The notes beneath the pieces are model-generated. The model worked only from the letters and a program-made list of their open reading frames with translations, was not told where the DNA came from and did no database searches. A stretch of DNA of 64,000 bases from contig JAJEKV010000036.1 of NCBI GenBank assembly GCA_021234155.1, positions 14,802,883 through 14,866,882 of the forward strand, written 5' to 3'. Below, piece after piece: positions 4,169 to 64,000 of this stretch. Both the position numbers and the translations under genes were made by a program. The first letter of the stretch is position 1. Every line of letters starts with the position of its first letter. This DNA is from Isoetes taiwanensis (Eukaryota > Streptophyta > Lycopodiopsida > Isoetales > Isoetaceae).

Positions 4169-6020
4169 TCAAACTACTCTCTTGACAATAACAGAAAGGA
4201 TGAGACAAAGCAGAAACAAATGTTTTCCAATGGCGATGCCACTCGCATCGATTTGCACTTCCCTCACGCTGGCCATTCCCATTTCCTCAATGCATTCCAT
4301 ATGCCTCCTTTTTGGCAAAGGTTTCGTGAGCACATCAGCAGTCATCAGATGTGTTCTAAGGTGCTTGATGGCAATTTTATTTTCATTTACCTTTTCTCTC
4401 GTGAAATGATACTGCACCTCAATATGCTTGGCCTTTGTAAAGTTGCTTTGGGGTTCTTTACAAGGTTAATTCTTTGCTTCGATTGTCATTGTAAATCATG
4501 TAGGCTTTCTTTGATCCACTCCCGGATCTTTCAAGAACCTCCCCGAGCGGATAGCCTCTTTGGTCGCCGCGACATATAGCCATGTACTTTTCGATTCACA
4601 TGTGCCGACGGCCCGTTGCCTTTTGCTTTTTGCTTGACCCGGTGATCACTCCCCACAACTTAAAGCAAAAGCACGCTCGAACTTCCGTAAAGATGTGTCC
4701 CTCGCATAGTCGGCATCTACAAAACCTTGTAGCACCGGAACCCCACCAGCCGTTCCATGATAAGTGAGCCCATAATGGGAAGTGCCTTTAAGGTAGCATA
4801 AAGATCGTTTGACCCTTTTGCCGATTATTGGAGCAGCTGGTTTTTCCATAAATTGAGAGCGGTGATTACACTTTCTCGATATATCCGGCCGACTGCAGAC
4901 CATAAGGTGCATAGGTGATCCAACAACACTTCGATAAGAGAGAGGTATCTTATGATCGAAAGGCATACATGGGTCCGAACTTGTGTCGGAAGCAAACCGG
5001 GTAGAAACGACAGGTGTACTTACCTCTTTGCAAAAGCGTGCATTTGGCATTTGTGAAGAAGAGATTCAACTCCTTTTGCTTGGTGGACTTGTCACAGTTC
5101 AATCGGTGAGGTTTCAAGAATCGCATCCCAAGGAAATATTTCAAGGATCCAAGGTCATCATTTGGAACCCGGCTTTTCAAAGCACGCTTAGTTTGTGCCA
5201 TTAAAACGGAAGAGTTAGATGCCAAAATGAGGTCATCAACATACAAGACAACGGAATGCATCTGTTTCAAAGATGCTTCACATAAACATTCCAATCAGCC
5301 TCACTTCTAGAGAACTCTTGGGCAGTGAAGAAAGAGTGAATGGTTTTATACCAAAGGCGAGGGGATTGTCTGAGCCCATAAATAGCCTTGCGTAACTTGC
5401 ATACTTTATTTTCTTGCCCACGAGGTGCATATCCGGTGGTCGCTAATGTACACTTCCTCATCTATCTTACCATGGAGGAATGCGGACTTGACATCCATCA
5501 CATTGGAGGTCAAAGTCATATCTTTCTTTGCTATGGCCAGAACTGCTCTCCACAGGATGTTAAAGCGTGCCACTTTGGTGCAAATGTTTCTTGATAGTCC
5601 ACCCACGCCGTTAGGGAACACCCTCGAGCTCTGGCCGTCTTTGTACCTGTCAATATTGCCATTCTCATCATATTTCACTTTGTACAGCCACTTGGTGGTG
5701 ATCGCCTTTTTGTTTGGTGGCAGATCGACAAGCTCCCAGGTTTCATTGTGCAGCAGGGAGTTAAACTCCTCATCCATTGCTTGTTTCCAAAACTTGCTTT
5801 CTCGATCGTGCATAGCTGATTGATACGTGGGTGGTTCCTCAATGGAAGCATTACAATGCATGGCAATGAAAGCTGATCCGCGTGCTCTCCTGCTCATGTA
5901 CTCCCACCATCTTTTCATGGGTTTCGAGGTCCTTGAGGATCTGCGAAACCGCTCTTCACAATCATTATCACTTTGCATACTCCTTCCGACTCGGGCTGGA
6001 AGGGAGATCATCTTCCTCAA
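4169..6020 (-). pseudogene. Copia reverse transcriptase and RNase H region, frame-broken
   Basis: Minus-strand frames give, in order, the RT entry (WKQAMDEEF, TWELVDLP, TKWLYKVKYD at about 5680-5870), the KSAFLHGKIDEEVYI palm segment (about 5460-5520), CKLRKAIYGLRQSPRLWY (about 5340-5400), the catalytic YVDD box (about 5220-5240), and DLGSLKYFLGM (about 5110-5140). RNase H follows: GLTYHGTAGGVPVLQGF and DADYA at about 4690-4780, then a C-terminal LTKPLPKRRH near 4320. At least four frame changes separate these pieces, and the RNase H centre is degenerate around 4640-4720. The product would have copied element RNA into DNA. It cannot be made intact from this copy. Confidence 0.93.
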
Positions 6021-6129
6021 GGGAATATCTCTTGGTGATTCCTCTACCTCTGATTCGAGTCACTTGAAGTTTCATGTTCTTGTTCTCGTGGGTTTGATAA
6101 GAGGATCATACTTCGGGGTTTCCCGATTC

Positions 6130-7000
6130 TTACCAATGCTTGAAGTCTAGCTCATTGAAGGATACACTCAGCCTCACAATCATTTTCTTGGTCGCAGTAC
6201 ATATAGTTTGTATCCTTTCACATGTTCCCCATAGCCCAAACATACAAGGTGTTGCCCTATTCCCAAACTTGCCGACTTCGTTCTGCTTTAGATAGATGCA
6301 CATATCTTTGTGCACCCAAATATTTTCATGCCCGAGACATCCCGGCTTCATTTTGGTCCATGCTTCCTCGCGCGGTTTGTGGCACGACCTTGGTGGGTAC
6401 TCGTTAATGATGTACACGGCAGGTATGCACGCTTCAGCCCAAAATTTAGGTTCTATGCCCTTAGAAAGGATCATAGACCTAGCACATTCCAAAGACCCGG
6501 TCCGGTTTTCCTCTCCACAACGCCATTCTCCGATGATGCTCATGAGCCACCGAGGTCTCGTGGATGATCACCGAGCTTCTTTAAGAATTCATCAAATTCA
6601 CCATCAGAAATTCTCCTCCTTGATCACTTCGATAGTCTTCACCTTCTTTTCTATGAAGTTCTCTCGCCATGGCTTTCCATTGCTTAAACTTCCGAACACT
6701 TCAGACTTATAAGCTAAGAAATAAACCCAATTTTTCCGAGTATAATCATCTATGATCAATAGAAAGTACACGGATCCACCTAGAGATTTTATCCGAGCAG
6801 CTCCCCATCGTCCATGTGGGACCGTTCGATGGGTGACTTGCCCTTGCTCCCTTTTTGATTGTGATATGATCTCGCCGCTCGGCTTGGCGGCGACAACCTT
6901 CGCATATTCCCCGGGGTTTTGACTTTGGGTAGCCCTTTCACAAAATTCGGACCTGCATCTTTTGAGGAATCGAAGTTGGCATGACCAAGGCGTTCATGCC
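6130..7000 (-). pseudogene. Copia integrase region, frame-broken
   Basis: The frame 6130-6543 shows the core-domain end with ARSMILSKGIEPKFWAEA and VYIINEYPP, followed by an altered EAWTKMKPGCLGH stretch, typical of the Ty1/copia integrase C-terminal half. Upstream, at about 6780-6960, a broken frame carries the zinc-binding pre-integrase type segment (GICEGC followed by a basic stretch). The enzyme would insert the cDNA into the host chromosome. Stops and frameshifts make it non-functional. Confidence 0.88.
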
Positions 7001-7329
7001 AAGTTTGATTGGGATCTGTCTTTCGCGGTATTTAGAGTAGATGGTTCTCTCGCACCACCCCATTCTATAAAGACTTCCCATTCTTTCTCCTTGTGCCACC
7101 ATGACACATTTTTGATTTCAATTATACACCTTCCTCCTCCAAATGTGATGTATAATTGAGCATCATCCATTTTTGAAATTGAGAGCGATTGGCTTCCAAG
7201 TCCGCACATACAACGTATTTTTCAGCAGGACCTTCCCCTGTGGCTAGTTTTAACATCACAGTTCCCGTGCCTTTTACACTTAAAAAGGCCTTTTTTGCCT
7301 ATTTTACTTTCCATTGTCCTGTTTCTTCT

Positions 7330-7976
7330 TTAAACTCCCGGAATAATTCTTGTTTTTGGCGCCATGTGGTCACCGCCCCCAGTCCGAGCCATATCCCTTT
7401 GCGGTCTACGCCATGAGAGCCACCTCAATTCCACATGAATTATCCAAAGGGTTATCATCATGATATTGCTTTGGTTTCTCTCCAGCTTACACGTTACGAA
7501 TGCCCCTGCTACAGACACAAGCGAATCACTGCTGGAGCTTCGATCAGAGTTATCAGTCTCACTTGCCTTGGAAGCTTTGTGAGCATGGCCTCTTTTCTTC
7601 TTCATTTCATCTTTGTCAGCAACCACCTGTTTCTTCTTTCTTTTAGCATCATTTCTCTTGTTGGGTTCAGGGCAGTCCCTTGCAATATGCCCATGTTTGT
7701 TGCAATTGTAGCATTTACGGGTCTCAACATTCTCTTGTCTTCCAACAAGTGCGTGCCCTTCAACTTGTCCTCCTCGCTTGGCTCCTGCCTGATTGATCTC
7801 CTCCATTAAGATCTGTTGGCATGCCCATTCCAACTCCACATGTTCAACAGATCCGATCACATTCTTTACGTTATTGAAGGTTGCCGGCAATCCCAGGAGT
7901 AGAGCACCCACAATCAGGTCATCTTCAAGCCCCTTTTCCATTCCTTTGAGTTGGAGTGCAGCTGCCTTGATTCTGG
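7330..7976 (-). pseudogene. Copia gag, C-terminal half with CCHC zinc knuckle
   Basis: The minus-strand frame 7330-7941 (203 codons) has GLEDDLIVGALLLGLP (capsid helical region) followed by the zinc knuckle CYNCNKHGHIARDC at about 7690-7730, then a lysine-rich and serine-rich tail. The knuckle spacing C-X2-C-X4-H-X4-C is intact. The frame continues upstream to 7976, where the nested DNA transposon's target duplication begins. The N-terminal half of gag lies at 19840-20300. The protein would package element RNA in virus-like particles. A protease-type segment should follow towards 7000-7330 but is too broken to define. Confidence 0.93.
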
Positions 7977-7980
7977 AAAT

Positions 7981-8005
7981 AAGTCGTATTTAATTAAAGT
8001 GGGAC
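7981..8005 (+). repeat. Left terminal inverted repeat of the nested transposon
   Basis: It starts AAGTCGTATTTAATTAAAG and matches the reverse complement of 19802-19823 apart from two single-base gaps. Immediately outside is AAAT (7977-7980). Confidence 0.85.
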
Positions 8006-8935: not shown

Positions 8936-9979
8936 TCACCCCAAAGACCCCTTTGCCACAACTTCGATACCTTGTACAGGCATCCACAACTTGTCACCTG
9001 GTCTCCACTTATATTGCATGATTGGTATTCCATCCCTAACCCAAAACTTGAATCTGAAGTGGCTTTGTGTGTCTGTCAAGCGGTCCTTACCATCTAGCAA
9101 GTATCCTTCTACAAATGATTTCCAATCTGCAACCTCATCCATCAAGAAAGCCATTGGGTTGGGGTCAATGCAGCTCTCAAACACATCCATTAGTTCAGGG
9201 AGAGTGGTCACGTTTTCTCTCTTGAGCTTGGTGGAGAAAGTTCCAAAGAATCCATCTATATCATCATGCGTATGCCCAACCATCATGAATCCCACTTTCA
9301 CAACTTTGAATACTCCCACTGCTGTCAAGTATGACATAGCCCCAAACATCCATCTATTCTTGTTTTCTTTCCAACAGTTGTCCAACTGAACACATAGCTC
9401 CTCGGGCAGTGATTTCTCAAGTAAGGGGAAATCATCCCAAGTCCTCCTTGATTCACCAGACACCTTGGATGTGAGCTTTTTTAGCTGCCTTTGGTAACAA
9501 AGCGGTTGATCATCCATCAAAGCCTCAAAAATGGGTGCTGAAGGGGAATACCTCCTCCCTTCTATCGATCCTTTCTCTAGTGTTCTCAGGCACTTGAAAA
9601 TAGAGCTCACATGGAAGTTTGGATCATCTCTCCATAGATCAAGCACAAAATGACCATATGTTCCAGTTCCATGACCATGTGTTAATACACCCGCCAGACT
9701 TACTTTCATCTGAAAAGCGTTTTGACAACGCTTGGGTAAAGGATCTAGCTTTGGCAAGAAAGTCTTGTGTTGGTCCATCTTATCATGAATTATACACAAA
9801 AATTTGTCTGGCTGCATCTCAGAAAATGTTCTCCACTGCCAATACAACTGTCTACATGATATTTGGTCCCTTTGGTGATCTGCAAATTGCTCCCTAATTG
9901 CCATTCTTTCTTTCTCTATTGCAGTTGATGCAAGTGTATCCTTGAGTTGAATGCAAGTGTTGCACTTTGAGAATGGCAT
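8936..9979 (-). CDS. Transposase-like core, DUF7869-type with GHTHDDID motif (347 codons open)
   Basis: This is the longest open frame in the nested transposon. Motifs in order are FLCIIHDKMDQHKTFLP (about residues 60-77), LTHGHGTGTYGHFVLDLW (about 99-116), CVQLDNCWKENKNRWMFG (about 195-213) and VGFMMVGHTHDDIDGFFG (about 230-247). Three spaced acidic positions (D in the DKMDQ box, D in LDNC, D in HDDID) fit an RNase H-like DDE/D fold, as proposed for this family; the catalytic role is my inference. It lies inside a TIR-bounded element and is the obvious candidate to mobilise it. An N-terminal portion lies at 9894-11065 in other frames, so this is probably an interrupted gene. A domesticated host protein is unlikely given the frame breaks and location. 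Confidence 0.75.
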   Translation of the reverse strand: MPFSKCNTCIQLKDTLASTAIEKERMAIREQFADHQRDQISCRQLYWQWRTFSEMQPDKFLCIIHDKMDQHKTFLPKLDPLPKRCQNAFQMKVSLAGVLTHGHGTGTYGHFVLDLWRDDPNFHVSSIFKCLRTLEKGSIEGRRYSPSAPIFEALMDDQPLCYQRQLKKLTSKVSGESRRTWDDFPLLEKSLPEELCVQLDNCWKENKNRWMFGAMSYLTAVGVFKVVKVGFMMVGHTHDDIDGFFGTFSTKLKRENVTTLPELMDVFESCIDPNPMAFLMDEVADWKSFVEGYLLDGKDRLTDTQSHFRFKFWVRDGIPIMQYKWRPGDKLWMPVQGIEVVAKGSLG

Positions 9980-11065
9980 GTGTTGTAGGACACTCCGTCA
10001 CGAGAAGTGAGTGCTCCATAACTGCTGAAATGTGATTGAGAAAGAGGCCTACCTCCGATGGTTTCAGGATGGAGTTGACCTCCTTAAGGCACTCCTTTTG
10101 GATATAGTGTTGTGGCAACACTCTTTTTGCACCACTCGCTGCACCGTGCTTTCGTTCACCTTCGACTTGTGGGGCATAGATTGAGACATGTATCTCACAA
10201 AGCTCTCGAAGGCGCAATGGCCTTGAGAGTATTTGCTCTAGGTTTCAAAGTGAGTGCATTACCATGTTGGAACAAACTGTGCCCTTTTCTAACCTGCTCC
10301 CAGTATCTGTAAAATGAAGACTTGCTCACCCCAAGAATCCATCTCAATGCTCTCATACATACCTTCAAGCCCCTCAATTGATATAGTAGCCGTCATGTGT
10401 TTTCATCATAGCTGGAATTCCTACACAAGGAGTAAATGAAATTAATCCTATCTTTTGAAGTCTGTCCAATGTATTGGGACCTTATCTGCCGCGAGGTCAT
10501 CCACATTGTATTGCCTTTGTGCAATCTAGGTTGCAACACTCTTGTCCCCTAATTGCCTCCAGGTTTTCTCTGGTTGGTGCCATACTTTCCATCCTTTCTA
10601 AATATTTGTCACTTCTAGGCCTCTTGGGCACCCTTGGCTAGCGTCTCTTCCTTGTGATCAAAGGATGCTCATCGACCACCAAATCTTCCACATGGCCTTG
10701 GGTGGGCCTTGGGGTGTGTAGTTCGATGGGGCATTCTAGAGTATCACCATTCTTGTGTGTAATATATCTAATTGGCCATCTCAAGCGAGCTTGGGACTCC
10801 GGCAGACCACGAGCACACAATGCAATCACTAGAGCTTCCACAGGACATGATTGTATCAACCCGATAAGAAGCTTCACAATGCCAACTCCAAGATGTTCAT
10901 CTCCCGACTCTCATCATTCACACTATCAAATGGATCAACTGCAGTTATTATGCCCTCTGCAAATACCGTCTGGTTGCAAGGGTGCAACAAAAGGCAACCC
11001 TTCTTCCTCCATTGGAGCCTAGGGCAATGGCCTCTGCTGGACTTCCTTGGCTCCATTTTACTCAT
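9894..11065 (-). pseudogene. N-terminal part of the transposase, several frames
   Basis: Minus-strand pieces read towards the core. 10874-11065 and 10638-10877 contain VFAEGIITAVDPFDSVNDE, resembling the plant-transposon DUF8039-type domain. 10195-10377 contains ILGVSKSSFYRYWEQVRK, a helix-turn-helix-like segment that usually precedes this core family. 9894-10217 contains LPQHYIQKECLKEV and ends in YTCINCNRERKNG, leading into the KCNTCIQLK start of the core, possibly a cysteine-pair zinc site. Stops between pieces, and 10378-10637 without clear coding, indicate decay or unresolved introns. Confidence 0.55.
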
Positions 11066-34655: not shown

Positions 34656-34859
34656 TTGATATTTAATGTGTGCTAAAAGAACATTTTTTAAGTGCCTATA
34701 TTATTATCTTGAATTATTGAAATACTAGTAATGGTGCCCGGCATTCTTTGGCGCATAAAAATTTGAGAACACCGTGGATGGAAACATGTTCAATTCAACT
34801 CCTTTTCATAAATCTTAGATAATAAAAACTAAGCCCAATGTTGCTGGGCTATAAGAGGT

Positions 34860-36560
34860 TTTTGTGCACTCAAGTATCATTTCCCTTTCTCTTTGCTTTT
34901 TGCTCTATCCTTGATTTCCCTTTTTCTTTTCATTTTTTCCTATTTTCCTACAGACTTTCCTTTTTCCTTTTCCCTACACATTTATTTTTTCCTTTTCCTC
35001 TTTTCTTTTTATCTAGCTTTTTCCTTCCCTTTTCCACTTCTTGTTCTTCTTTTTCCCTTACCCCTTTTAGATGGATTTTTTTCCTTCCCTTTCATCTTTT
35101 TTTCGGCCCTTCCCTTTTTCCCTCGTGCTCTTTTTCCTTTCCTTTTCCCCTCCTCTTCCTTTTCTATTTCCCTTTCCTTTTTTCCTTCCTTTTTTTTCCA
35201 CCTTTTTTTCATGTGCCCCTCTTCTTCTTTTTGTCCTATGCTCTTTTTCCCTTCATTTTTTCCTTTTTCTCACCCTTTCTCTCTTTTTTCTTGTTATGCC
35301 CTTTTCCCCTCTCTTTTTCATTTTCCCTCTTCCCTATTCTCCTCGTTTTTTCTCACCATTTTATGTGCCCCTTTTTCTTCTTTTTAAGCACCCTCTTCCC
35401 GTTTTTCTCGTGCCCCTTCTCCCTTTCTTTTCTTTTTTTCTTTTCCCTTGTCCCATGCTCTTTTCCCTTCACTTTTTCTTTTTTCTCACTCTTTCTCTCT
35501 TTCCCTTTTCATGCTATTTTCCCCGTCTCTTTTTCATTTTTCCTCTTCCCCATTCCTTGTGCCTCTTTTTCCTTTCTTTTTCTCTTTTCCACCTCTCTTT
35601 TTTTTTTTCTTTCCCTTCCTTTTCATCCTTTCCTGTCCTTTTTCACTTTCTTCCTCCCATTTCATTTTCTTTTTCCCTTCCCTTTTCCCTTTCCCCGACC
35701 CTTTTTTAAGCCTTTAGCCATCGTTTTCTCTTTTTTTTTTTTTTTTTGCGTTCCCCTCCTTTTTTTTCTTTTTTCTTTTGCTTTTCCCTTCCTTTCTCAC
35801 CCTTTCCTTTTCCTTTTCTCGGGTGCCCTTTTTGCCCTTCCATTTTCCATTTCCCTCTCCTTTTCCTCGTGTTTTCGGTTTCCCTTTCTACATTCCTTTT
35901 TTCTCTTCCCTTTCTCCCTTCTCTCCACCATTTTTTCCTCTTCCCTTTTTTTTCCTTCCCTTTTCACCCTTTCCCACACCCTTTCCTCTTCCCTTTTCCC
36001 ATTGCCTTTTTTGCCTTCCTTTCCTCCCTCCCTTTCTTTTCCCTTTCTCTTTTCCTATACCCTTATCCACTTCCTTCTTTCCCTCTTCCCCTTTTCCTCG
36101 TGTCTCTTTGCCTTTTCCTTTTTCACCTTTCCATCCCCTTTTTCTATTTTCCTTTCCCTAACCTCCCCCCTTCCCAGGTGCCCTTTTTTTTCCTCCCGTT
36201 TTTTCTTTTTTCTTTCCTCTTTTCCTTTTCTATTGCGTCATTCCCTTTTCCCCATCTTTTCGATGCACCCCTTTTCCTCCTTTCTCCATCCTCTTCTTCT
36301 TTTCCCTTTGTCCGTTCCCCTTCCCTTTTCTTTCCTTTTTTTTACTTTTCCATGCTCTTTTTCCCTTCCTTTTCCCCTTTCTCCAACCTTTCCCCTTTGG
36401 TCTTTTCTCGCGCCCTTTTTCCATCTCCCTCTCCCCTTTTCCTCATGCCCATTTTTCCCTTCCTTTTCCCCTTTCCGCATTGCTTTTTCTTTTTTTCCTT
36501 CCCCTTTCGCTTTTCCAATGCCCTTTTTTCCTTTACTTTTCCTCCTTTCCCCACTCTTTT
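34860..36560. repeat. 1.7-kb polypyrimidine tract
   Basis: Almost pure C/T on the plus strand, built of variants of TTTTTCCCTTCCTTTTCCC with ATGC or GTGC punctuation every ~50-70 bp. It keeps long frames open on plus (up to 585 codons of F/S/L/P) purely through composition, so no protein is called. Such tracts can form triplex H-DNA. It continues at 38206-38400 after the LINE B insertion. Confidence 0.92.
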
Positions 36561-36574
36561 CCCATTGCTCTTTG

Positions 36575-38222
36575 CGGCAATTTGGGGTTCGGTAGATTTG
36601 CGAGAATCACGATTAATGCGAGCTTTATAGAAAGATGCTTTCGAGGGTCGGTTCAGGTAGACAAATGAACCATTTGATAGTAGTATCCGGGGTTAGCGGG
36701 GGATGCCCTCTCTCCCCAACATTGTTTGGGCTTTACATTGATCAATTGGAGAGGCTGGCTTCTATGATAATGGGGCGATGGGGCTCACCTTCTCTACGGA
36801 TCATCAAGCGGTTAATATATCTTTGATGATGTGGACCTTCTAACTTACACACCAGCGGACATGCAGCGACATCTCGATGCCACGGACACATTTTGTCAGC
36901 GTGATATGTTGGCGTCAACTTGCCAAGACTAAGGTGGTTTTCATATCATCTTCCGCGACGGTAAGGATCCCCCTCCTTCCATTCACCAGAGAATGTGGAA
37001 GTAGCATCCACATACAAATATTTGGGAGTGGAGTTTCCGTCTACTATGCCTTTGGGACACATCCATGCGGCTCTGAGTTCACGGTGAGGTACGGAAAGCA
37101 CTATATGCAATGCAAAACAATAGTCATAGAAGAGTTGTATGATTGGACCCATCGGTCACCCTGTTCAAAGTCTTAGTGGAACTGTCCTTTTATACGGGGG
37201 TTGAAGTATGGGGCCAGATGTAATATCCCTCAGCTACTTGGAATGACTTGGGCAGGTGCAGAAAGCCTTCTTGGTACGAGCACTAGGGGTGAAGTCCCGA
37301 GTCCCATATCAAATTCTACTGCAGGAAACGAGATTCTTGCCTCTTGAGGCGGCCCTTGATAGCCACATTGTCTATTTTCAAAAGGTGGTCAACATGGGCC
37401 GATGCTTCGTCTCCCAAAACTTAAGCTTATATCATGGCAATGGGGCCTGGCGCCTCAAGGCTGCTTTGGAGAGGAAAAAGAGCTCAATGGATGGCTAGAT
37501 GGAATGTGCGAGGACGCAGTGCATACATGTGCAAGCGGTGGTCGCCATGGCTTGAGGGCAATATCTTGGCGCTTGCTTCATGGCAAGCTTTGGGATGCAG
37601 CCCCTTGAACGGAGTCAATCTGACACACTACCGGCGCCACATAAATCCCACATTGGAGCAGGGGCCACAATGCTACATAGCACCCACTTGCCCATGAAAA
37701 GGCCTTGGACTCATTGCCTCCATTATACGCGAGGGGCACATCATCTTGAATTGAGGCAGGCGGATGGATTGGTGAGCCACGTCGAGGCCAGGCTCTCATC
37801 AATCTTGCCAAATGGGAGTCATTGAGGATGAATCTCATACCCTTCAAAGTTGCCCGCCTTATGATCAAATCCGGACGGCGCTATCTTTGAGTTGGTCAGG
37901 CACCCGCCGCTACATGTGACATTGAGCCGCGGCATCCGTCACGGATGCTGGGATCATCAGCCGGGGGAGGTCATGGACATCGAGAGATCAGCTATGTCCT
38001 CGGGCCGCGCTTGACATGTACATACACATTTATTTCATGATGATGTATACTTGTACGGTTTGGCGGCATTCTTATTACTGCCACGGTTTTTCCCTTGAAA
38101 ACCCTTCGGGGCGGGGGTTTTTTAACACGGACAGTAATAAGTTTGCTGCGCTCCTTCTGGGTCCCATAGGCCGATTGGTCTCAGTGGACGATAAAAAAAC
38201 TATTCTATTCTATTCTATTCTT
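36575..38222 (+). mobile_element. LINE copy B, 5'-truncated, inserted in the polypyrimidine tract, (ATTCT)n tail
   Basis: RT motif GCPLSPTLFGLYIDQLERL lies at about 36695-36755, including the conserved P-L-S-P-x-L-F box. C-terminal pieces AFLVRALGVKSRVPYQILLQ and LETRFLPLEAALDSHI-like lie at about 37263-37370. The 3' UTR hairpin and GATAAAAAAA end are shared with copy A, followed by an (ATTCT)n run at 38199-38222. Pyrimidine tract lies on both sides, showing that it landed inside the tract. The catalytic FADD-type box is not preserved. Confidence 0.85.
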
Positions 38223-55921: not shown

Positions 55922-57420
55922 TCATGTTGGCCTAAATTCAGAACCATGGTAACACTCATGTGTCTCCTCCAAGCTGCAATCTATTTGTGGAGCATTATCA
56001 CTACCATGTCCTTCTGGAATCGAATTTTGGACGTCTTGATCTTCCTGAAAATGTTCCATAGTATCTGCAAAGCATTCATCTACATTGCAAAGAGGTATCT
56101 CAACAGAAATAGCAACCTCTTTTTCTAAACCCGGAACATCATTTGTCTGGTTATTGTCAATCACTTCAACAATCTCAATGCGCAATGAATTTTCTCCTTC
56201 TGCAACCTGCAAAGTCTAAATTTAGTCCTAAAATTAAAGAAAGAAGAAACACAAGAAAATTAATAAATACCTTTTCTTTTTTCCCTTGCCTTTTCTTGCT
56301 TCTTTCTCCTTCCTCTCCTCTTTGGCAGTCTCCCTAAAACATGCAACATCAAGTGGTCGCAGCCTATGTCTCGTATGAGCAGGTAATTTTAATATCTCAA
56401 TGCCAATAGATGAAGCATACCTTAATGTTTCAATGGTTAAGTGGTTGCCATGGCCATCAAGAATAAGCAAATGTGGATTTTCTTTCGACACTCCTCATGG
56501 AACCTTGGATCTAAAACGGTCAATCCAAATTAAATAAAGCATTAGTCATCAAGCTTTGGGGTCGCATCACCATTAAAACATCCGTTCCACAACTTTCTAG
56601 ATAATCTTTTCAGGCCCTTTTACCTTTGAGAACATAAAGAGAAGGCAATTTAACACCAGCAGCATAGACATAACAGCAAACTGTAAGCCACTCACGATTA
56701 TTCATGGTCCTTTCTGAAACTTGCCTTTGCCCTCTACGTCCTGTAATCCTAACCCCTGTTTCTTTTCCTGTTTGTATTCCTGACTCATCCACATTCCATA
56801 TGTGAGAAGGATCAAAATTAAACATTCTATAAGCTTCTGCTAAATCTGAGTAAAAAGCATCAAGATTAGGAGCTGAAATTGCAATGGCCCTAACATTATC
56901 CATAAGTTAAGTCCTTCTAAGTGCCAATTCTGGATGTCTCCCTTTAAAGCACTTCCACCATTTCCTACCTGGTAGCCCATCCTTGAAAGGAGTAATCCTG
57001 CCAGCACATATCCCTGCAACCCTCTCCCTTAGCAATCGAACGGTAACACCCGTCCCATCTGCAACCATTTGTAAGCACCAAGTAAGAAGATTTTTTTCTT
57101 CCTCGGGAGTAAGCACCTTTGGTTTCTTCCCATTCTCAACCTTTGAGATGTCAAATAGATAATTTCTCAAAGTGGTATGGGGCACACCACCTCATCAGCT
57201 TCCAGAATAGCTGCATCTATTTATTCTTTAGTCCAGGCACCTCTTTTCATGTTTCTAGCTCTCTTGAGAATTGGAGGTGCCCTGAACATGATTGCGAACT
57301 CCCAAACGTGGTCATTGTGGTAGAGGATTGATAATTGGGTTGTCTCATGATCAGGATCAGCAACATTAGAAGAAGCTTTTGCCTGCTGAGAGCATCCTCT
57401 AAGAGGCTTAAAAAGCATGA
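55922..57420 (-). pseudogene. pogo/Tigger-like (DDE_1) transposase relic
   Basis: From 5' to 3' on minus: an N-terminal helix-turn-helix segment with HTTLRNYLFDIS and a second with LRERVAGICAG (56907-57185), then the DDE core: HIWNVDESGIQTGKE (first D, about 56780), LLILDGHGNHLT (second D, about 56470), LRPLDVACF (third D, about 56340). After an intron-like step (CAG acceptor near 56212) comes an acidic C-terminal exon, 55922-56212. An in-frame stop near 57219 and frameshifts near 57190 and 56500-56610 inactivate it. The family cuts and pastes at TA dinucleotides. Flanking TIRs were not identified. Confidence 0.88.
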
Positions 57421-58170
57421 TGCAGAAAGCAAGAAAGGAGACGTGAACTAGGCTCAAATCAAAATGAGAAACTCTTATATAGATTCAGAAGAGAGGGAAA
57501 ATTTGAAATTAATACTCTAGAATGTGTTAAATAGTTGATCTTGTGGTCAAATTGCATGCCACAGTATCAATCTAGCTTTGGAACGCAAACAAAAGAGCAG
57601 GGAGATTTGTTCTTGGTAGGAAAAGCTCTAGTTGCATGTCATAATCCATGAATAAAGGCCCAAAAATCATATCACATGCATGAAACAACCGTAACAAGGT
57701 TTAAAATGAAACGCACTTATTTAAGAAGTGCGTTTGAAAGATTCCTTTATAAAAATTGGAAACTTGAAAAAAATAGACAAAATAGGGAGCAAAATAGATT
57801 GTTGAGCAAATAGCATTGAAATACCCCAAAAAAACAACATTTTTGAAGCCTTTTCATTTTTAAGAAGGGCAAAAAAAAAAAAAGCTTGTTTTGAGGGAAA
57901 AGACATTACATTTAAAAAACTCATTAAGTATTTGTTGTTGAAAATAGAAGGAAATATAGTTTTGTGTTTTTGCAAGCAATATAAGTACTAAGAAAATCAA
58001 ACATAGAAAAGAAAAAAGAGTCTCAGAAATCATGAATCAAAAAAAGAATTGTTCTAATTAAGCATTGTTGAAGAGACAAAGTTTTCAGTTGAGAAATCTT
58101 CATCAAAATATATTAAAATTCGTAACACATAGATTACAATGAAAAGATAGTTTAAAATCTTTGTGCATGT
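57421..58170. other. AT-rich spacer
   Basis: No gene is seen. A sharp rise in GC occurs at about 58170, coinciding with the first family B palindrome. Confidence 0.6.
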
Positions 58171-58904
58171 ATAAATTTATCACGGGGAGGTGGCTCTTCC
58201 AGGTCCACGGGACTCTCTCCCCCTTAGGATCCCGGTCTCTTGCGAGGTTATAATAGCGAGGCGCCCCTTGATTCCAATGAATGCAGTGCATTTGTTTCTA
58301 CGGCTCGGGCACCACCGGGCTCGGTCGACGAACTCCACCTCCTCATTTCTTCTTCCCCGTAAGTGGAGGTCGGATTTACGTATATGTGCCTTTTACATCG
58401 CCCGGCACCATTTTTTTGCTCCCAATTCCCTCGTTTTCATCGGAAAGGATTCACAAGAGCTTATCCGGTCCCGATGAAACTTATTTTGTCCGGTCTATGT
58501 CGACGGAGACAACATTGCCCCCTTAAGGGCAAAGCTGGCTGGTGCTGAGCGGAAAATGCGTCTAAGATCCGGTCGAAGGCGAAAACCAGCGTATCAAATT
58601 ATTTATAAGTCGTGGGCCCGATAATGGGACACCACGGCCGGCCCGCCGGGTCTCTTAATTTTTGCAAAACCGCCGAACTGAAACGCGTTGCGGGGAGAGT
58701 CTTTTTCATTCTAGCGTATTAAAGTGAACCATGGTTTTTTGGCGTCTGTATTGTAAAACCCTATGTGAAAGTGCTCGAAACAACTTACTAGCGGGACCAC
58801 CACCATGACCCACTAGCGTTTGTTTAAGCCTGCAAACGACACAACAATGAAATATTAGTAAAATAAAACAAGGAAAATAAGTTAGCTTCGGTAGTGTGGC
58901 GGGT

Positions 58905-59061
58905 ATAAATTTATACCGGGGTTGCCTTCGCGGTATAAATTTATACCCGCGATTGCCTATGTTGTATAAATTTATACAGCCGCAAGCCAGATAAATTTAT
59001 CTGAGACATTGCCTTGCTATATAAATTTTTAAACCTTAGGGCGGTTGTGGTATAAATTTAT
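58905..59061. repeat. Family B array I: six palindromes in an intron
   Basis: Cores ATAAATTTAT begin at 58905, 58935, 58966, 58991, 59021 (decayed) and 59052, steps 30, 31, 25, 30, 31. The best copies extend to GGGTATAAATTTATACC. All lie in the 276-nt intron 58830-59105. A lone copy at 58171 marks the left edge of the block. Confidence 0.93.
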
Positions 59062-60141
59062 CTGCGTAGGATTACTAAAAGAAAAGCGTTAAATGTTAAG
59101 CTTACCAAATCACGATTTTTCAAAGCCCAGGCATTCTGCATGCGGCTCCCATAGGTTTAAGCCGCGACATTGTTTGTAGGGTCGAATGGAAAATAATGAC
59201 CCTCCGATTAGCGGATAAGGTGACTTCCTTTAGGCCTTCAAAAAGGTGGACTTGCACGCGTCGTGAAAGCCTCCCTCGTCAAAAGCGTCATAATTTTGAA
59301 ACCATAGGGAATATACAGAATGCATAATGTGAAGTTACGCTTCTCCAAAAGTGTCCCCTGACCTACGTCGCGATCACCCTCAACAACTTCGTACATGCGG
59401 TCGACCAAAGCGTTGTAAATCTTTCATAAAGTGTCAAAACGCTGGTGGCGACCTCCTTTCCTGTTCGATTGCCTTAAGTCTCGCCTCTCTTCCTTGGCCC
59501 CTTAACCCGGGGTTTAAAAATCCAAATGGGAGCCCCTTTTTCTTGTTACGTAAGAATATTGTGAGAAAAAGGCACAAACCTGAAACATATTTTTAGCAAA
59601 ACTTACCCGACCACTAAAGTTAACGGCGTGCTCTCTAATAATACTATCGGTGGTACAACTTGGGTAGAAAGCTTGCACTCCTCAGTTCCTCAAGGTTTAG
59701 GCTGCTTCATTAACTTCGGCACAGCGGTAACAATGTCTTCGTGCGCAAAGAGAAACATGTTGTAAGACCGTAGGAAAATGTAAAAGAAAGGCGGCATTGC
59801 AAATGTGGCTTACGTCTTAGCTTCCTTGGCCATTTAGATCTAATGTAAATTCCTTAATGCTGACTTTTTCCAAAGGCGAACAAAAAATTTCTTTGCTTTT
59901 TAATCCACAGAATCGCTGGGTCCGGGTACAATGCTCATATTTTTTGTTTTAATTCTCCACCCTTTTTGGTTTTTCCACTGCCGGGCTTGCTTTCTTTAAG
60001 CTCACCATCTTGAACATACAAAAATTCTTTCTTGAAGATCCCACACCAGTAAATGGACAAGCGCCATTGGTTTAGTGTTGCTTAAGCGTAAGAGAATATG
60101 TTGCGGTCTACTTTCTAAACACGCATGAGTGGTGTAGTCAG

Positions 60142-60502
60142 ATAAATTTATACCGATCCACAGACCCGGTATAAATTTATCACAGCGACTAGCCCTTGAT
60201 ATAAATTTATCTTGCGTGCCTAGTCAGCGGTATAAATTTATCTGCGTCTCGCCACTGATATAAATTTATCCACCGTGCCCATACACCAGATAAATTTATC
60301 ATGGACTAGGCACGCGGTATAAATTTATACCGCTGACAAGACGATGATAAATTTATCACCGTGCGGACCGCGATATAAATTTATCTGCAGACACTCCGTT
60401 TTGTATAAATTTATACCGTCTGAAACTGACCATATAAATTTATACCGTGCCTAGTCACTTGATATAAATTTATCTCTGAGGTGGCCGACGGTATAAATTT
60501 AT
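60142..60502. repeat. Family B array II: thirteen palindromes at ~29-bp steps in one intron
   Basis: Cores begin at 60142, 60171, 60201, 60232, 60260, 60290, 60319, 60347, 60375, 60405, 60434, 60464 and 60493 (all steps 28-31). Every one of the 13 keeps the 10-bp core ATAAATTTAT exactly. Flanks alternate between GGT...ACC and GAT...ATC forms. The 18-20-bp spacers are mostly unlike, but GTGCCTAGTC appears in two and inverted in a third. The array fills the 422-nt intron 60115-60536. Confidence 0.97.
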
Positions 60503-61560
60503 ACCGCTTGGCAAGCAATTCTTGTAAACCACATACCTACAAAACATAGAAAGAAGAAGCGACTTCTTACTTGACCATCTCCGAATGCCGGTGAAAGTAG
60601 TTATCATTATTGCTTTACTTGCCATAATGGGCTTCTTATCATAGTCATAGCTGAAGTGACACTTCTGTCCGCCGGGCTTCTCGAAGCTCCTGCGACTTGT
60701 TCTTTTTGCTTTTTAAAATCCTCTCCATACATTTGTTTAAATTCCACGTACTCCGCAGTGCATGAAGCGGGATCTTGTCTATTAAACTCATTTTTAATCT
60801 GAAGTCATTGTGGATTATGACTCCGCGGCAATGACTTTTGCTTCTTCATCTGTTACACCAGCGTATATATGTGCTTCCTACGCTCTTCCACGCCGTTCAC
60901 TGCTTTTCCTCTTTTTGCTGGTTCTTTCCTTGCCTTGTAACTATGTGTGCCTCCAAGAACGTGGTATGTGTAATCTTGAAGTCGACCTTCTTGTAATCTT
61001 TTTGGTTGGTTGCACCGACTCACCCACCATAACAACTAGGTGGCGACACATGGGCATGAGGATTTCTTCTCATTCTTTGTTTCGGTATAGCCACATGTGC
61101 CTCTGACTTAGGACCAGAGCACTTTCGACCCCATCTTCATTTTTAGGTGGCCTCTTAATGGTGCTCAATGTCAAAGAAATAGTTTGCTTTAGCGGTTTAG
61201 TGTCATTCACCCACGAGAATAGCGCGGATTTATGCCGGGCTTCACAACAATATACGCTCCGGGGCCTTTCGAAGAGCTTCACGGTGACTCCTCTATAGTC
61301 AAAGACTTTGTGCCTCTAGATTTCTTTTTGTAGGGAGCACGTGTATCTACTCACCGGGGAATGCTTTCTACCCTTTCCCTTTGTTACCACTTTGGTTCCT
61401 CTTCCTTCTTCTTCTACTTCCTCGTCCTTCTCTTCAAACTCTTCGATAGGAGTCAGTGCCGAGACCTTTGACCAACTTTGTTTCTTCATAAAAGCTTCTA
61501 GCCCGACATTAAAATGTCCACTATATCCTGTGAATGCGAGGTTAAGTTAGGAAGATGATG

Positions 61561-61575
61561 GTATAAAATTTATGC
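61561..61575. repeat. Single family B palindrome in a 73-nt intron
   Basis: GTATAAAATTTATGC lies near the middle of intron 61528-61600 (GTAAGTATTG ... TTCACAG on minus). Even this minimal intron carries one copy. Confidence 0.8.
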
Positions 61576-61990
61576 ATTAAAGACACTAAACAATACTTAC
61601 ATGGCCACTCTTGTAATTGTCGCGCCGATACTCTTGCACATCTTTGGGTTTTGCACATGCTTATTCGAAACATTTTACTTTCAAACGTAAGACTTCCCCC
61701 TTGTCATGCATGCACTTCATTAAAGATTTCATCATCGACCTCTGTAGCAATAAGGTTGATAATTTTAGGGTAATAATGCGTCACTCTTGTACTTTTGCCC
61801 TTCCCTCGATTGATGACCCCGCAAGGCGGAGGTACGCCTCGATTGGTTTGCTCTCTTGCACCCCTGTGGACGTACCACGCCCCACAGGTCTTTCGATTCA
61901 GATGTACGTGGCTCTATTGGTTGCGGCCCAGATGATGGTACTCCTGTTTACAAACTGATCCTCTCACTGGAAAAAGCGTAAAGAAGCCAT

Positions 61991-62640
61991 TTTTATGCAA
62001 GAATTAGACCTTTTTCCACCTTTGTACCATAAAAAATGTAGTAAAAATAGAGGCTAAAGAGCATAAAATCTACACTAAATTATCACTTTATTTTGTGTTA
62101 TTTAAGCTTAAAAGCATAGAATACATCGAAATTTTAAGGTTTCGACACTTCTTTAAGCACTAGACACCAAGATTCCAAAATGGTTACGGATGCAGAGCCG
62201 TTATACCGCCGAGCACGAGCCAGTATAAATTTATACCGAACTGTGGAATTACGATCGATATAATTTATACCCCTTGAGTGCTTTCAATTTATAAATTTAT
62301 ACCGCTCTGATCCGCTTCTATAAATTTATACCGCAGAAAATTTCGGCGGTATAAATTTATACCGTTCCAGGACACGCTCGGTATAAATTTTATCCGCGGT
62401 GCTTTCGGCGGTAAATTTATAAACGTGTTCGAAGCGTATAAATTTATACCGCCGACACCGGGCGCAGATAAATTTATAATATATGCGGTATAAATTTATA
62501 CCGGATTGTTCAGTTGAACCGCATAAATTTATACCGGGCCCGTACCGAAATATACCCTATACCGCTCAGAACATACTTCCAGATAAATTTTATACCCCAT
62601 CCGTAAACTTCATATTCCAGAGGTAAAAGTTATACCCGCA
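61991..62640. repeat. Upstream flank of the gene with family B array III (~14 units, partly decayed)
   Basis: Units begin at about 62225, 62260, 62291, 62320, 62351, 62383, 62412, 62438, 62468, 62490, 62523, 62553, 62583 and 62623. Steps centre on 30 bp, with one double-length gap near 62600. Decay is mostly single-base loss or gain in the T/A core, while the phase is kept. The array lies upstream of the gene's possible ATG at 61990, in promoter or leader position. Confidence 0.88.
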
Positions 62641-62906
62641 GCTGGCTAATTCCAGTGCATTTAAAACAAAAGAGAAACCAGAAATGTAAAGATTTGCAGA
62701 TTCCACGCGGGTCATGACAAGATAGAATCCTCATGATAGACGCTCCAGAGCAAATAAGGGGGTATATAAGCCGTCACGAGCCTTCGACCGAAAGGCCAGA
62801 TAGGCAGAAAAATAGGGCGGTCGGCGCCCCGCTAAGTACCTTCGCGGTGTGCCGCCATATAGCGCTTCTCCATGCTTTTCAACACAAGGTCCGGTGGAGT
62901 TTTCAG

Positions 62907-63045
62907 ATAAATTTATACCGCTTTCCGTTTCTCTATGTTAGCCCTTCAGAGCAATTTTGAGTACCATCTCCAGATAAATTTATACGTACCGGCCGCTTTG
63001 TTTTTTCCTCAGAGTAAATTTATGCTTCCATCAGTATAAATTTAT
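62907..63045. repeat. Family B array IV, scattered copies
   Basis: Copies at 62907, 62974, 63014 and 63036. The last (CAGTATAAATTTATACCG) is the right-most in the window and marks the right edge of the block. Confidence 0.85.
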
Positions 63046-64000
63046 ACCGTATGGCTCGAGAGAAAAGAACCGCAGAGCCTAACTCTAGAAGCTTCCTCCC
63101 CGCAATGGCTTTCACACCTCCTCAACGGAACGAAGTGAAGCCACGAATATTCTACATCCGACGTTTCCAACACCCATTTCGGTGAGTTTGCTCCAAGAAG
63201 ACCACCTCTGCTTCCCACCAGTTCAATTTACTCCACCACAACACCTCTCGAGCCTCGAACGGCCGCTCCCCATTCACCAATCAAGTTTCACCCCAACAGC
63301 TAGGAGAGAGGCCTACCTCCTCAATTCATTTTAGTACGTCAGCCCCATAGTCCACCTGTAGGCCCCTCCACCTGAGGCAAATCACACCCAACTCCATCCA
63401 TTTTGCTAAATGGTGCCTACAACAAGTGGGAGCAACAACACATCACAACTCCTGTTCTAATACAGAGCCGGGGTCAACCATGCCACCGTGCCCTCGACAT
63501 TTTTCCCAGAGAGAAAGCACTTCCCCTGTGCCTTGCCCACATCAAACCTCTCTCAAAGATCTACAAGTTAATTCCTCATGTTGATCTTCGTGGTTTTAAG
63601 CAAACACCTCATGTTGATGTCTCATTTTAGGACCTACCAAAGCCACAAGACTCCATGTTCGAATTCAATAAAAGCCCTCGCAAGTAAAAATCTTGGGGTT
63701 TAACTTTACAAGAGCAGCATGTACAACCTGTTAGAAGAAAAGAGAACTCATGGATCTAGGCTCACTTAAGGGGCAACACATACAAAGCATCATGTTCTCA
63801 ACGCTAGTTTGCTTAACATTGGACTAAAGGAATTGAAGCCGTTTCCGCGATAGTTACAACAATGACTCTCGCTAGACCAAAGGCTGCTACTGAGCCTTCC
63901 AATATTAGGCCGATGACAGGAGAAGTTTACTTATTAATAGCCTGGTGGCCACACCGGGCTCCTGGTCAAACGGCCTTCAAATTGGATTCATGCTTTTAGG
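63046..64000. other. Right edge; possible short exon at 63105, otherwise unassigned
   Basis: ATG at 63105 opens 25 codons starting MAFTPPQRNEVKPRIF and reaches a strong donor, CG|GTGAGTT (GT at 63182). The next exon is not identifiable. The frame 63403-63630 is open for 75 codons but not recognised. Composition is C-rich on the plus strand. Confidence 0.3.

Follow-up and report, generated by a model that had tools for sequence, protein, structure and literature searches.

Arrays of a constrained palindromic core in the introns and intergenic DNA of an Isoetes transposon family are candidate docking sites for a transposon-linked protein

The array of thirteen palindromic cores that fills much of one intron in a 64,000-nucleotide stretch of the Isoetes taiwanensis genome (contig JAJEKV010000036.1, positions 14,802,883 to 14,866,882; this whole stretch is referred to below as the window) belongs to a family of DNA transposons with inverted ends and 4-bp target duplications. 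The anatomy of the element is well supported, as is the constraint on the 10-bp core, and the spacers which separate the cores are diverged 28-bp tandem units. The array is best interpreted as a self-recognition array in which the cores are putative docking sites for a transposon-linked DNA-binding protein, similar to VANC of the VANDAL transposons, and we give this interpretation somewhat better than an even chance of being correct. A transposon-linked binding protein is likely, and relief from silencing by the arrays is suggested by analogy.

Thirteen exact copies of ATAAATTTAT were found at 60142-60502, in agreement with the original prediction, at successive steps of 29, 30, 31, 28, 30, 29, 28, 28, 30, 29, 30 and 29 bp (mean 29.25). 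The predicted spacer range of 18-20 bp is correct for all but one of the twelve spacers, which measures 21 bp, and the description of the spacers as mostly unlike is only partly right, since their likeness to one another on either strand is well above that of shuffles (z 7.4 for whole spacers, 4.2 for the inner part without the arms). The single GT-AG intron that had been proposed is real, but its limits differ, and the intron extends on the minus strand from a donor at 60570 to an acceptor at 60047. The acceptor ends in CTG, and CAG is found there in 23 of the 28 other copies with a match. In the window this intron is 524 nt long and contains 13 exact cores; the 27 other loci that were measured by script have introns of 130-515 nt with 1-10 exact cores, after the exclusion of the L059 and W rows, for which wrong donor sites had been matched, and of 3 of 30 loci (L032, L044 and L045) which gave no acceptor. 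Loose donor matching may clip some of these introns, as for L048, which has 5 cores in this survey compared with 11 in that region. The array that was originally noticed (array B below) is one of several core clusters in the window, its intron is part of a transposon gene, and such arrays recur through the transposon family; the last two of these facts were not visible from the window sequence with which the prediction was made.

Exact cores occur 30 times in the window, all at 58171-63045, compared with a mean of 0.32 and a maximum of 2 in dinucleotide shuffles, and they lie within a transposon copy that has the following features:

57692..64000, no strand: DNA transposon copy, with a left end common to other copies and the right end missing
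57692..57801, plus strand: left terminal inverted repeat region, beginning AACAAGGTTTAAAATGAAACGCACT, 97.2% identical to the C16 copy (first 110 bp)
58171..58180, no strand: lone core at a distance of about 480 bp from the left end; 22 of 30 methyltransferase-gene loci have a core at the matching place
58185..58831, minus strand: degraded 3' exons of the methyltransferase-like gene, located by tblastn with pieces of the C16 copy and homologous to the exons as far as the FSGSG motif
58830..59105, minus strand: array A intron, a GT-AG intron of 276 nt identified by its splice sites and of equal length in the consensus of 30 copies
58905..59061, no strand: array A, five exact cores and one with a mismatch
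59106..59363, minus strand: degraded exon homologous to the ADIPYG exon (motif IV-like), with a tblastn match at 59141-59363 and a donor site
60570 (donor) to 60047 (acceptor), minus strand: array B intron, with splice sites conserved in related copies
60142-60502, no strand: array B, 13 exact cores, matched by 10-13 exact cores in 14 siblings
60771..61357, minus strand: degraded exon homologous to a 378-aa open frame at L059:2885-4018, with no recognised domain
61592..61889, minus strand: degraded 5' exon of the methyltransferase-like gene, with no recognised domain
62225..62592, no strand: array C, eight exact cores and further degraded ones, between two divergent genes
62907..63045, no strand: array D, three exact cores and one with a mismatch
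63051..64000, plus strand: degraded start of the transposase gene, identified by tblastn to the C16, C4 and other frames and cut by the contig end

The contig ends where the window ends and cuts off the transposon, so the window copy shows the left end only. This copy is collinear with the C16 copy at 72.9% identity. When copies are compared, they prove to share sharply defined ends, with AACAAGGTTTAAAATGAAACGCACT at the left and the inverted AACAAAGTTTAAAATGAAACGCACT at the right, and AACAARGTTTAAAATGAAACGCACT is present in inverted orientation at both ends of other copies. Exact ends occur 761 + 779 = 1540 times in the genome, compared with 0 for the control. Target duplications of 4 bp accompany 14 of the 15 copies checked: they are perfect in all ten copies picked from the listing of ends and are present in four of five earlier copies (ATAG, AAAT, GATT and ACCC), L011 having none. 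Among 32 neighbouring end pairs, which were formed by hand from the first 100 ends listed, 13 are separated by 8.0-9.5 kb, 12 by 2.0-2.4 kb and 7 by distances from 3.5 to 15.8 kb. Both element ends also contain further hairpins outside the arrays, AAACGCACTT..AAGTGCGTTT on the left (57708-57734) and GGAATCTTTGAAAGATTCC on the right in L010, L011, L014 and L019.

The element carries two divergent genes, a DUF7869 gene and a second gene with methyltransferase-like motifs, and tblastn comparison shows both to be degraded in the window copy. The Pfam domain DUF7869 lies further along the transposase frame in the C16 and C1078 copies, and model and context together indicate that this gene probably encodes the transposase. 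The model was computed for a second, separate DUF7869 frame at window positions 8936-9997 on the minus strand (353 aa), using 36 of its 41 relatives in public proteins, and predicts an RNase H-like fold of the integrase/mariner type, which suggests that DUF7869 is in general a transposase domain. A Foldseek search with the model returned nothing significant; a second look with VIA-align, unlike Foldseek, gave a significant match. A Pfam domain of unknown function thus gains a likely transposase role.

Relatives of the ADIPYG exon of the second gene were scored at 150 places, with 9 stops among the 150 rows. Amino-methyltransferases are characterized by the SAM-binding motif FxGxG and the catalytic motif (D/N)PP(Y/F); in the C16 copy the second gene carries DAFSGSGT and ADIPYG, the latter of which is not the canonical DPPY. 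The joined pieces of this copy match PF01555 with an E-value of 7e-5, which is below the family cut-off, and in NCBIfam they best match CcrM (NF050803) with an E-value of 1.4e-5, falling far short of the cut-off; the best PDB chain is also CcrM, with an E-value of 0.049. The second gene thus appears divergent, with a weak sequence similarity to adenine DNA methyltransferases. Its protein has no relatives in public proteins at E <= 0.001 and contains no recognised DNA-binding domain. A ParB-like domain suspected by eye (YVLGGTHSYKARKEL...) is absent from lax Pfam, NCBIfam and PDB sequence searches, a BAH-like domain, likewise guessed by eye, has no match in the Pfam search, and other weak Pfam matches in the same exon (IgA0_D2 0.008, CAC1F_C 0.013, XRCC4_C 0.016) lie below their cut-offs and were taken as chance. 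Searches of open papers on DUF7869, on transposon-borne adenine methyltransferases and on methyltransferases in Isoetes transposons turned up no account of this element, which is no proof of absence.

Arrays of CGGTATAAATTTATACCG occupy two introns of the second gene, the space between both genes, and the DNA just before the transposase start, where the final core of array D stops 5 bp ahead of the ATG of the transposase frame. These places recur in other copies. All 30 loci have array A, with 3-5 exact cores, at 80-251 bp after the ADIPYG exon; 29 of 30 have array B, which lies about 0.86-1.35 kb before the end of that exon (L044 has one further core at 1.6 kb), and 22 of 30 have the lone core at 945-1011 bp after the exon. 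In the searched genome of 1,658,258,908 bases in 1110 contigs, ATAAATTTATACCG occurs 8081 + 8311 times and the reversed pattern 10 + 10 times, and the genome-wide check for pairs of cores at 28-31 bp that was originally recommended yields 4571 pairs, compared with 2 for the reversed-pattern control. Among the matches listed, 38 of 50 core pairs have an exact transposon end within 9.5 kb, where 1.8% would be expected; eight of the other twelve are inside the C16 copy, whose ends have one mismatch, and four are in the C4 copy, for which no transposon end was found. The surroundings of 402 exact cores from 41 loci, which overlap partly with the loci later used for tests, are symmetric: they form the palindrome CGGTATAAATTTATACCG, the information content is symmetric around the core, and the positions that stand out most beyond it hold G at -2 (0.92) and T at -1 (0.94), with A (0.92) and C (0.87) as their counterparts on the other side. 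Pairs of GGTATAAATTTATACC 11-16 bp apart were absent from the viral and prokaryote contigs searched, and a scan of the window gave no Rfam match and no tRNA.

The origin of array B can be read from its relatives. A search with the intron DNA produced 610 first-look places, and among the best 40, which were scored, at least 34 other places align with the full length of the query at 70-81% identity, and a further 5 with part of it. Fourteen of the 34 whole-query matches were used as siblings, and all 14 contain 10-13 exact cores. In the sibling L084, thirteen units (12 with exact cores and one with a mismatch, the limit allowed for a unit in the arm and step analyses) follow one another at uniform 28-bp steps, and all of their arms are GGT..ACC. 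The spacers of the window and of the other copies are recognisable descendants of L084-like units. Since the units of L084 are uniformly 28 bp long and have canonical arms, the starting point of the array was an ordinary tandem repeat with a 28-bp unit. The argument that simple tandem duplication does not explain the array is therefore not supported as a statement about origin, and the alternative of repeated insertion of a tiny palindromic unit was rejected on the evidence of the same clean sibling. The question of whether the spacers are diverged copies of a single unit of about 29 bp is thus answered in the affirmative for the origin of the array, and the constraint on the core holds as well.

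This constraint is seen in three sets of copies, in each of which the core is kept above other A/T columns. In array B of the 14 siblings, which came from the DNA search with the window intron, core columns are 0.985 identical, compared with 0.608 for the spacers and 0.927 for the flanking intron and exon; for A/T columns the corresponding values are 0.656 in the spacers and 0.935 in the flanks, and a permutation test of the core against A/T columns gives p 5e-5. In array A of 30 copies, which were chosen by protein exon, the core columns taken from the consensus score 0.956 and the remaining A/T columns of the intron 0.886 (p 4e-4 by permutation), and the spacers, at 0.849, change at the ordinary rate of the intron outside the array (0.871) and are not unusually variable. 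In four 2.2-kb copies, taken from a listing that required one exact ATAAATTTATACCG, 1 of 90 core columns, again defined by the consensus, is variable compared with 144 of 1344 other A/T columns (p 9e-4), and 24% of the array spacer columns are variable. Between the window and C16 copies, core columns agree at 92.5%, the first 110 bp at 97.2% and other sites at 72.1%, in an alignment whose aligner tends to pair cores. The proposal that selection holds the dyads is thus borne out as regards constraint, which favours the originally suggested DNA-binding protein platform. While the genes of the element decay, its ends and cores are the parts kept best, a pattern that cis-acting sites should show in copies whose movement or protection is provided in trans. 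Third codon positions of the ADIPYG exon (0.776) differ more between copies (L029-L058) than does the intron outside array A (0.871), and because of this the array A intron as a whole may be under constraint.

The bases that adjoin the core in array B behave very differently from the core itself. In pairwise comparisons of nine 13-unit copies, the six central bases of the core show full agreement, to two decimals, while the base just outside the core agrees in 58% of pairs on the left and 81% on the right; in the array B subfamily the rate of change of these adjoining bases is about five times that of the surrounding intron. This presents a clean puzzle, in that a 10-bp palindrome stays near letter-perfect while its neighbours in this subfamily change fast. 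L081 and L082 differ at 1.3% of flank, 0.8% of core and 19.6% of spacer sites (22 transitions, 19 transversions), and L081 and L084 differ at 2.2% of flank and 3.3% of spacer sites. Non-canonical arms rise with flank divergence (Spearman 0.75, p 0.001, 15 copies). In L086 all 13 left arms are non-GGT in a 3-base script test, many of them alike (GTG or CAG), and most right arms are kept. The spacers are GC-rich (0.59-0.70, compared with 0.41-0.42 for the flanks, in six copies); the ratio of transitions to transversions among spacer changes is 0.76, and since transitions do not predominate, the changes are not accounted for by deamination. The window copy has private changes at 243 of the 2803 sites that lie outside arrays A and B, together with 79 indel events, and these show no excess of deamination; the substitution spectrum is flat, and many of the indels are of one base, 16 of 62 such indels lying in runs of three or more.

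The fast change of the spacers is specific to the array B subfamily and could in part be assembly error. In this explanation, which is doubtful and concerns the spacers only, so that it is compatible with the other readings, residual errors of the nanopore assembly near modified bases would give arms and spacers a false look of hypervariability, with the A/T core being read correctly. Passages of PMC8566536 describe the Isoetes assembly as a product of miniasm, racon and pilon with filling by LR_Gapcloser; the private one-base indels and flat spectrum of the window copy, the left arms of L086 that have mostly changed alike beside mostly unchanged right arms, and the unequal spacer change between copies with near-equal flanks (3.3% for L081 and L084, 19.6% for L081 and L082) also speak for it. 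It is opposed by the tracking of flank divergence by arm decay, although noise could raise both, by the ordinary intron rate of the array A spacers in 30 copies, and by the 16 of 62 one-base indels in runs, and it leaves the arrays themselves unexplained. The fast arm change (L081-L094, window 60142-60502) may be either targeted mutation or the misreading of modified bases; if real, it would resemble the rapid evolution reported for the target repeats of VANC.

In the preferred interpretation as docking sites, each core would dock a dimeric, sequence-specific protein which is most likely encoded by the transposon, and the dense arrays would allow this protein to tell transposon from host DNA and to act on the element. 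The most likely action would be the shielding of element promoters and introns from silencing, or the regulation of element genes, as with VANC on VANDAL21; 2.2-kb deletion copies would keep the array because they too need the docking protein, in trans. The conserved places of array A in 30 of 30 loci and of array B in 29 of 30 argue for docking sites. Against them, a single degraded copy should experience weak selection on as many as thirteen redundant sites, the second protein contains no recognised DNA-binding domain and has no relative at E <= 0.001, and part of the contrast in array B comes from fast-changing or misassembled spacers. We regard as unlikely a self-marking interpretation in which the transposon carries its own adenine-type amino-methyltransferase together with the target arrays: the protein of the second gene would recognise CGGTATAAATTTATACCG and methylate it or the DNA around it, the self-made mark would separate transposon from host and counter silencing by cytosine methylation, and the fast, partly parallel arm change around a fixed core in this subfamily would be the trace of the enzyme, arising either through mutation or through the misreading of modified bases in native nanopore DNA.

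A rather unlikely alternative to docking sites that serve expression is that the cores are assembly sites for a transposition complex and serve excision, like the TNPA sites of En/Spm. Passages of PMC2613891 identify TNPA-bound subterminal repeats as cis-determinants of excision, and the 2.2-kb deletion copies have retained an array with nearly invariant cores, which speaks for this alternative; the arrays are, however, internal (in introns and between genes) and not subterminal at both ends, and the right 3.5 kb of the C16 copy contains no exact core. The cores could also be host transcription-factor sites that were captured and multiplied by the transposon, as their presence in introns and ahead of the transposase start would allow, but this is improbable given that the paired motif keeps to this family among the matches listed, with 38 of 50 pairs near exact ends and the other twelve in the C16 copy (8) and the C4 copy (4). 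It is just as improbable that the array is a neutral minisatellite, a 28-bp unit which has spread with the transposon and whose A/T-only core gives the impression of conservation because mutation is faster in the methylated, GC-rich spacers. The descent of the spacers from tandem units, their GC-richness and the variation in the number of exact cores in the array B intron (1-10 in the 27 measured loci) agree with such a history; the superiority of the core over other A/T columns in three sets, the ratio of 0.76, by which deamination is not supported as the cause of spacer change, and the preservation of the same core by arrays in separate places do not.

The docking interpretation draws on the VANDAL21/VANC21 system of Arabidopsis. 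According to passages of PMC5735166, VANC21 binds a short motif in fast-changing tandem repeats located in the introns, intergenic DNA and terminal noncoding DNA of VANDAL21, and that paper and PMC10398659 report that the target repeats include an intron of VANC21's own gene and that binding causes methylation loss. The Isoetes element resembles this system in its dense motif repeats in its own noncoding DNA, in the quick variation of the repeats in number and sequence between copies, and in the possession of a second, non-transposase gene. The VANC21 motif, YAGTATTAY, is not a palindrome of the CGGTATAAATTTATACCG kind. The second gene here also differs, in that it looks like a methyltransferase. 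VANDALs are Mutator-like transposons, and thus another transposon group, whereas the transposase frames here match DUF7869 only and have no Mutator-type match. The Isoetes family adds a second lineage of transposons, this one from a lycophyte, whose own introns contain dense motif arrays, and the VANDAL/VANC idea that motif density serves as an identity tag thereby becomes testable as a general rule.

Other mobile elements share single traits with this family. CACTA (En/Spm) elements are similar in being two-function transposons with many copies of a short motif that has GC-rich and AT-rich parts (passages of PMC2613891) and in having internal deletion derivatives; the family described here differs from them in its ends (AACAARG... 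and not CACTA termini), its 4-bp instead of 3-bp target duplications, its DUF7869 transposase frame, and the location of its arrays in introns and between genes instead of subterminally. CACTAYAA has 2 matches in the window, fewer than the chance mean of 3.5, and a CACTA assignment was rejected. The DIRS elements, which carry adenine methyltransferases, resemble this element in combining mobility with an adenine-methyltransferase-like gene, but passages of PMC5890265 present them as retrotransposons with Dam-like enzymes, while the present element is a DNA transposon whose best NCBIfam match is CcrM. The 4-bp duplications fit Sola2 as described in passages of PMC3627910. A CRISPR array, with which array B shares short dyad repeats and regular spacing, was rejected in agreement with the original assessment, which had also recognised a plant-like genome: the repeats are short, the spacers are related to one another and to those of sibling copies, the frames scanned gave no cas-type match, and the context is a transposon.

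The window contains remains of other mobile elements. A degraded Tc5/pogo-type transposase lies beside the left end of the element at 56610-57191 on the minus strand (HTH_Tnp_Tc5, E 1.5e-6 for 56907-57191), and remains of a Copia-type retrotransposon with RVT_2, zf-CCHC and a weak gag match occupy 5406-7989 on the same strand. A polypyrimidine tract at 34826-36595 on the plus strand contains a 589-codon open frame, which is apparently a by-product of composition.
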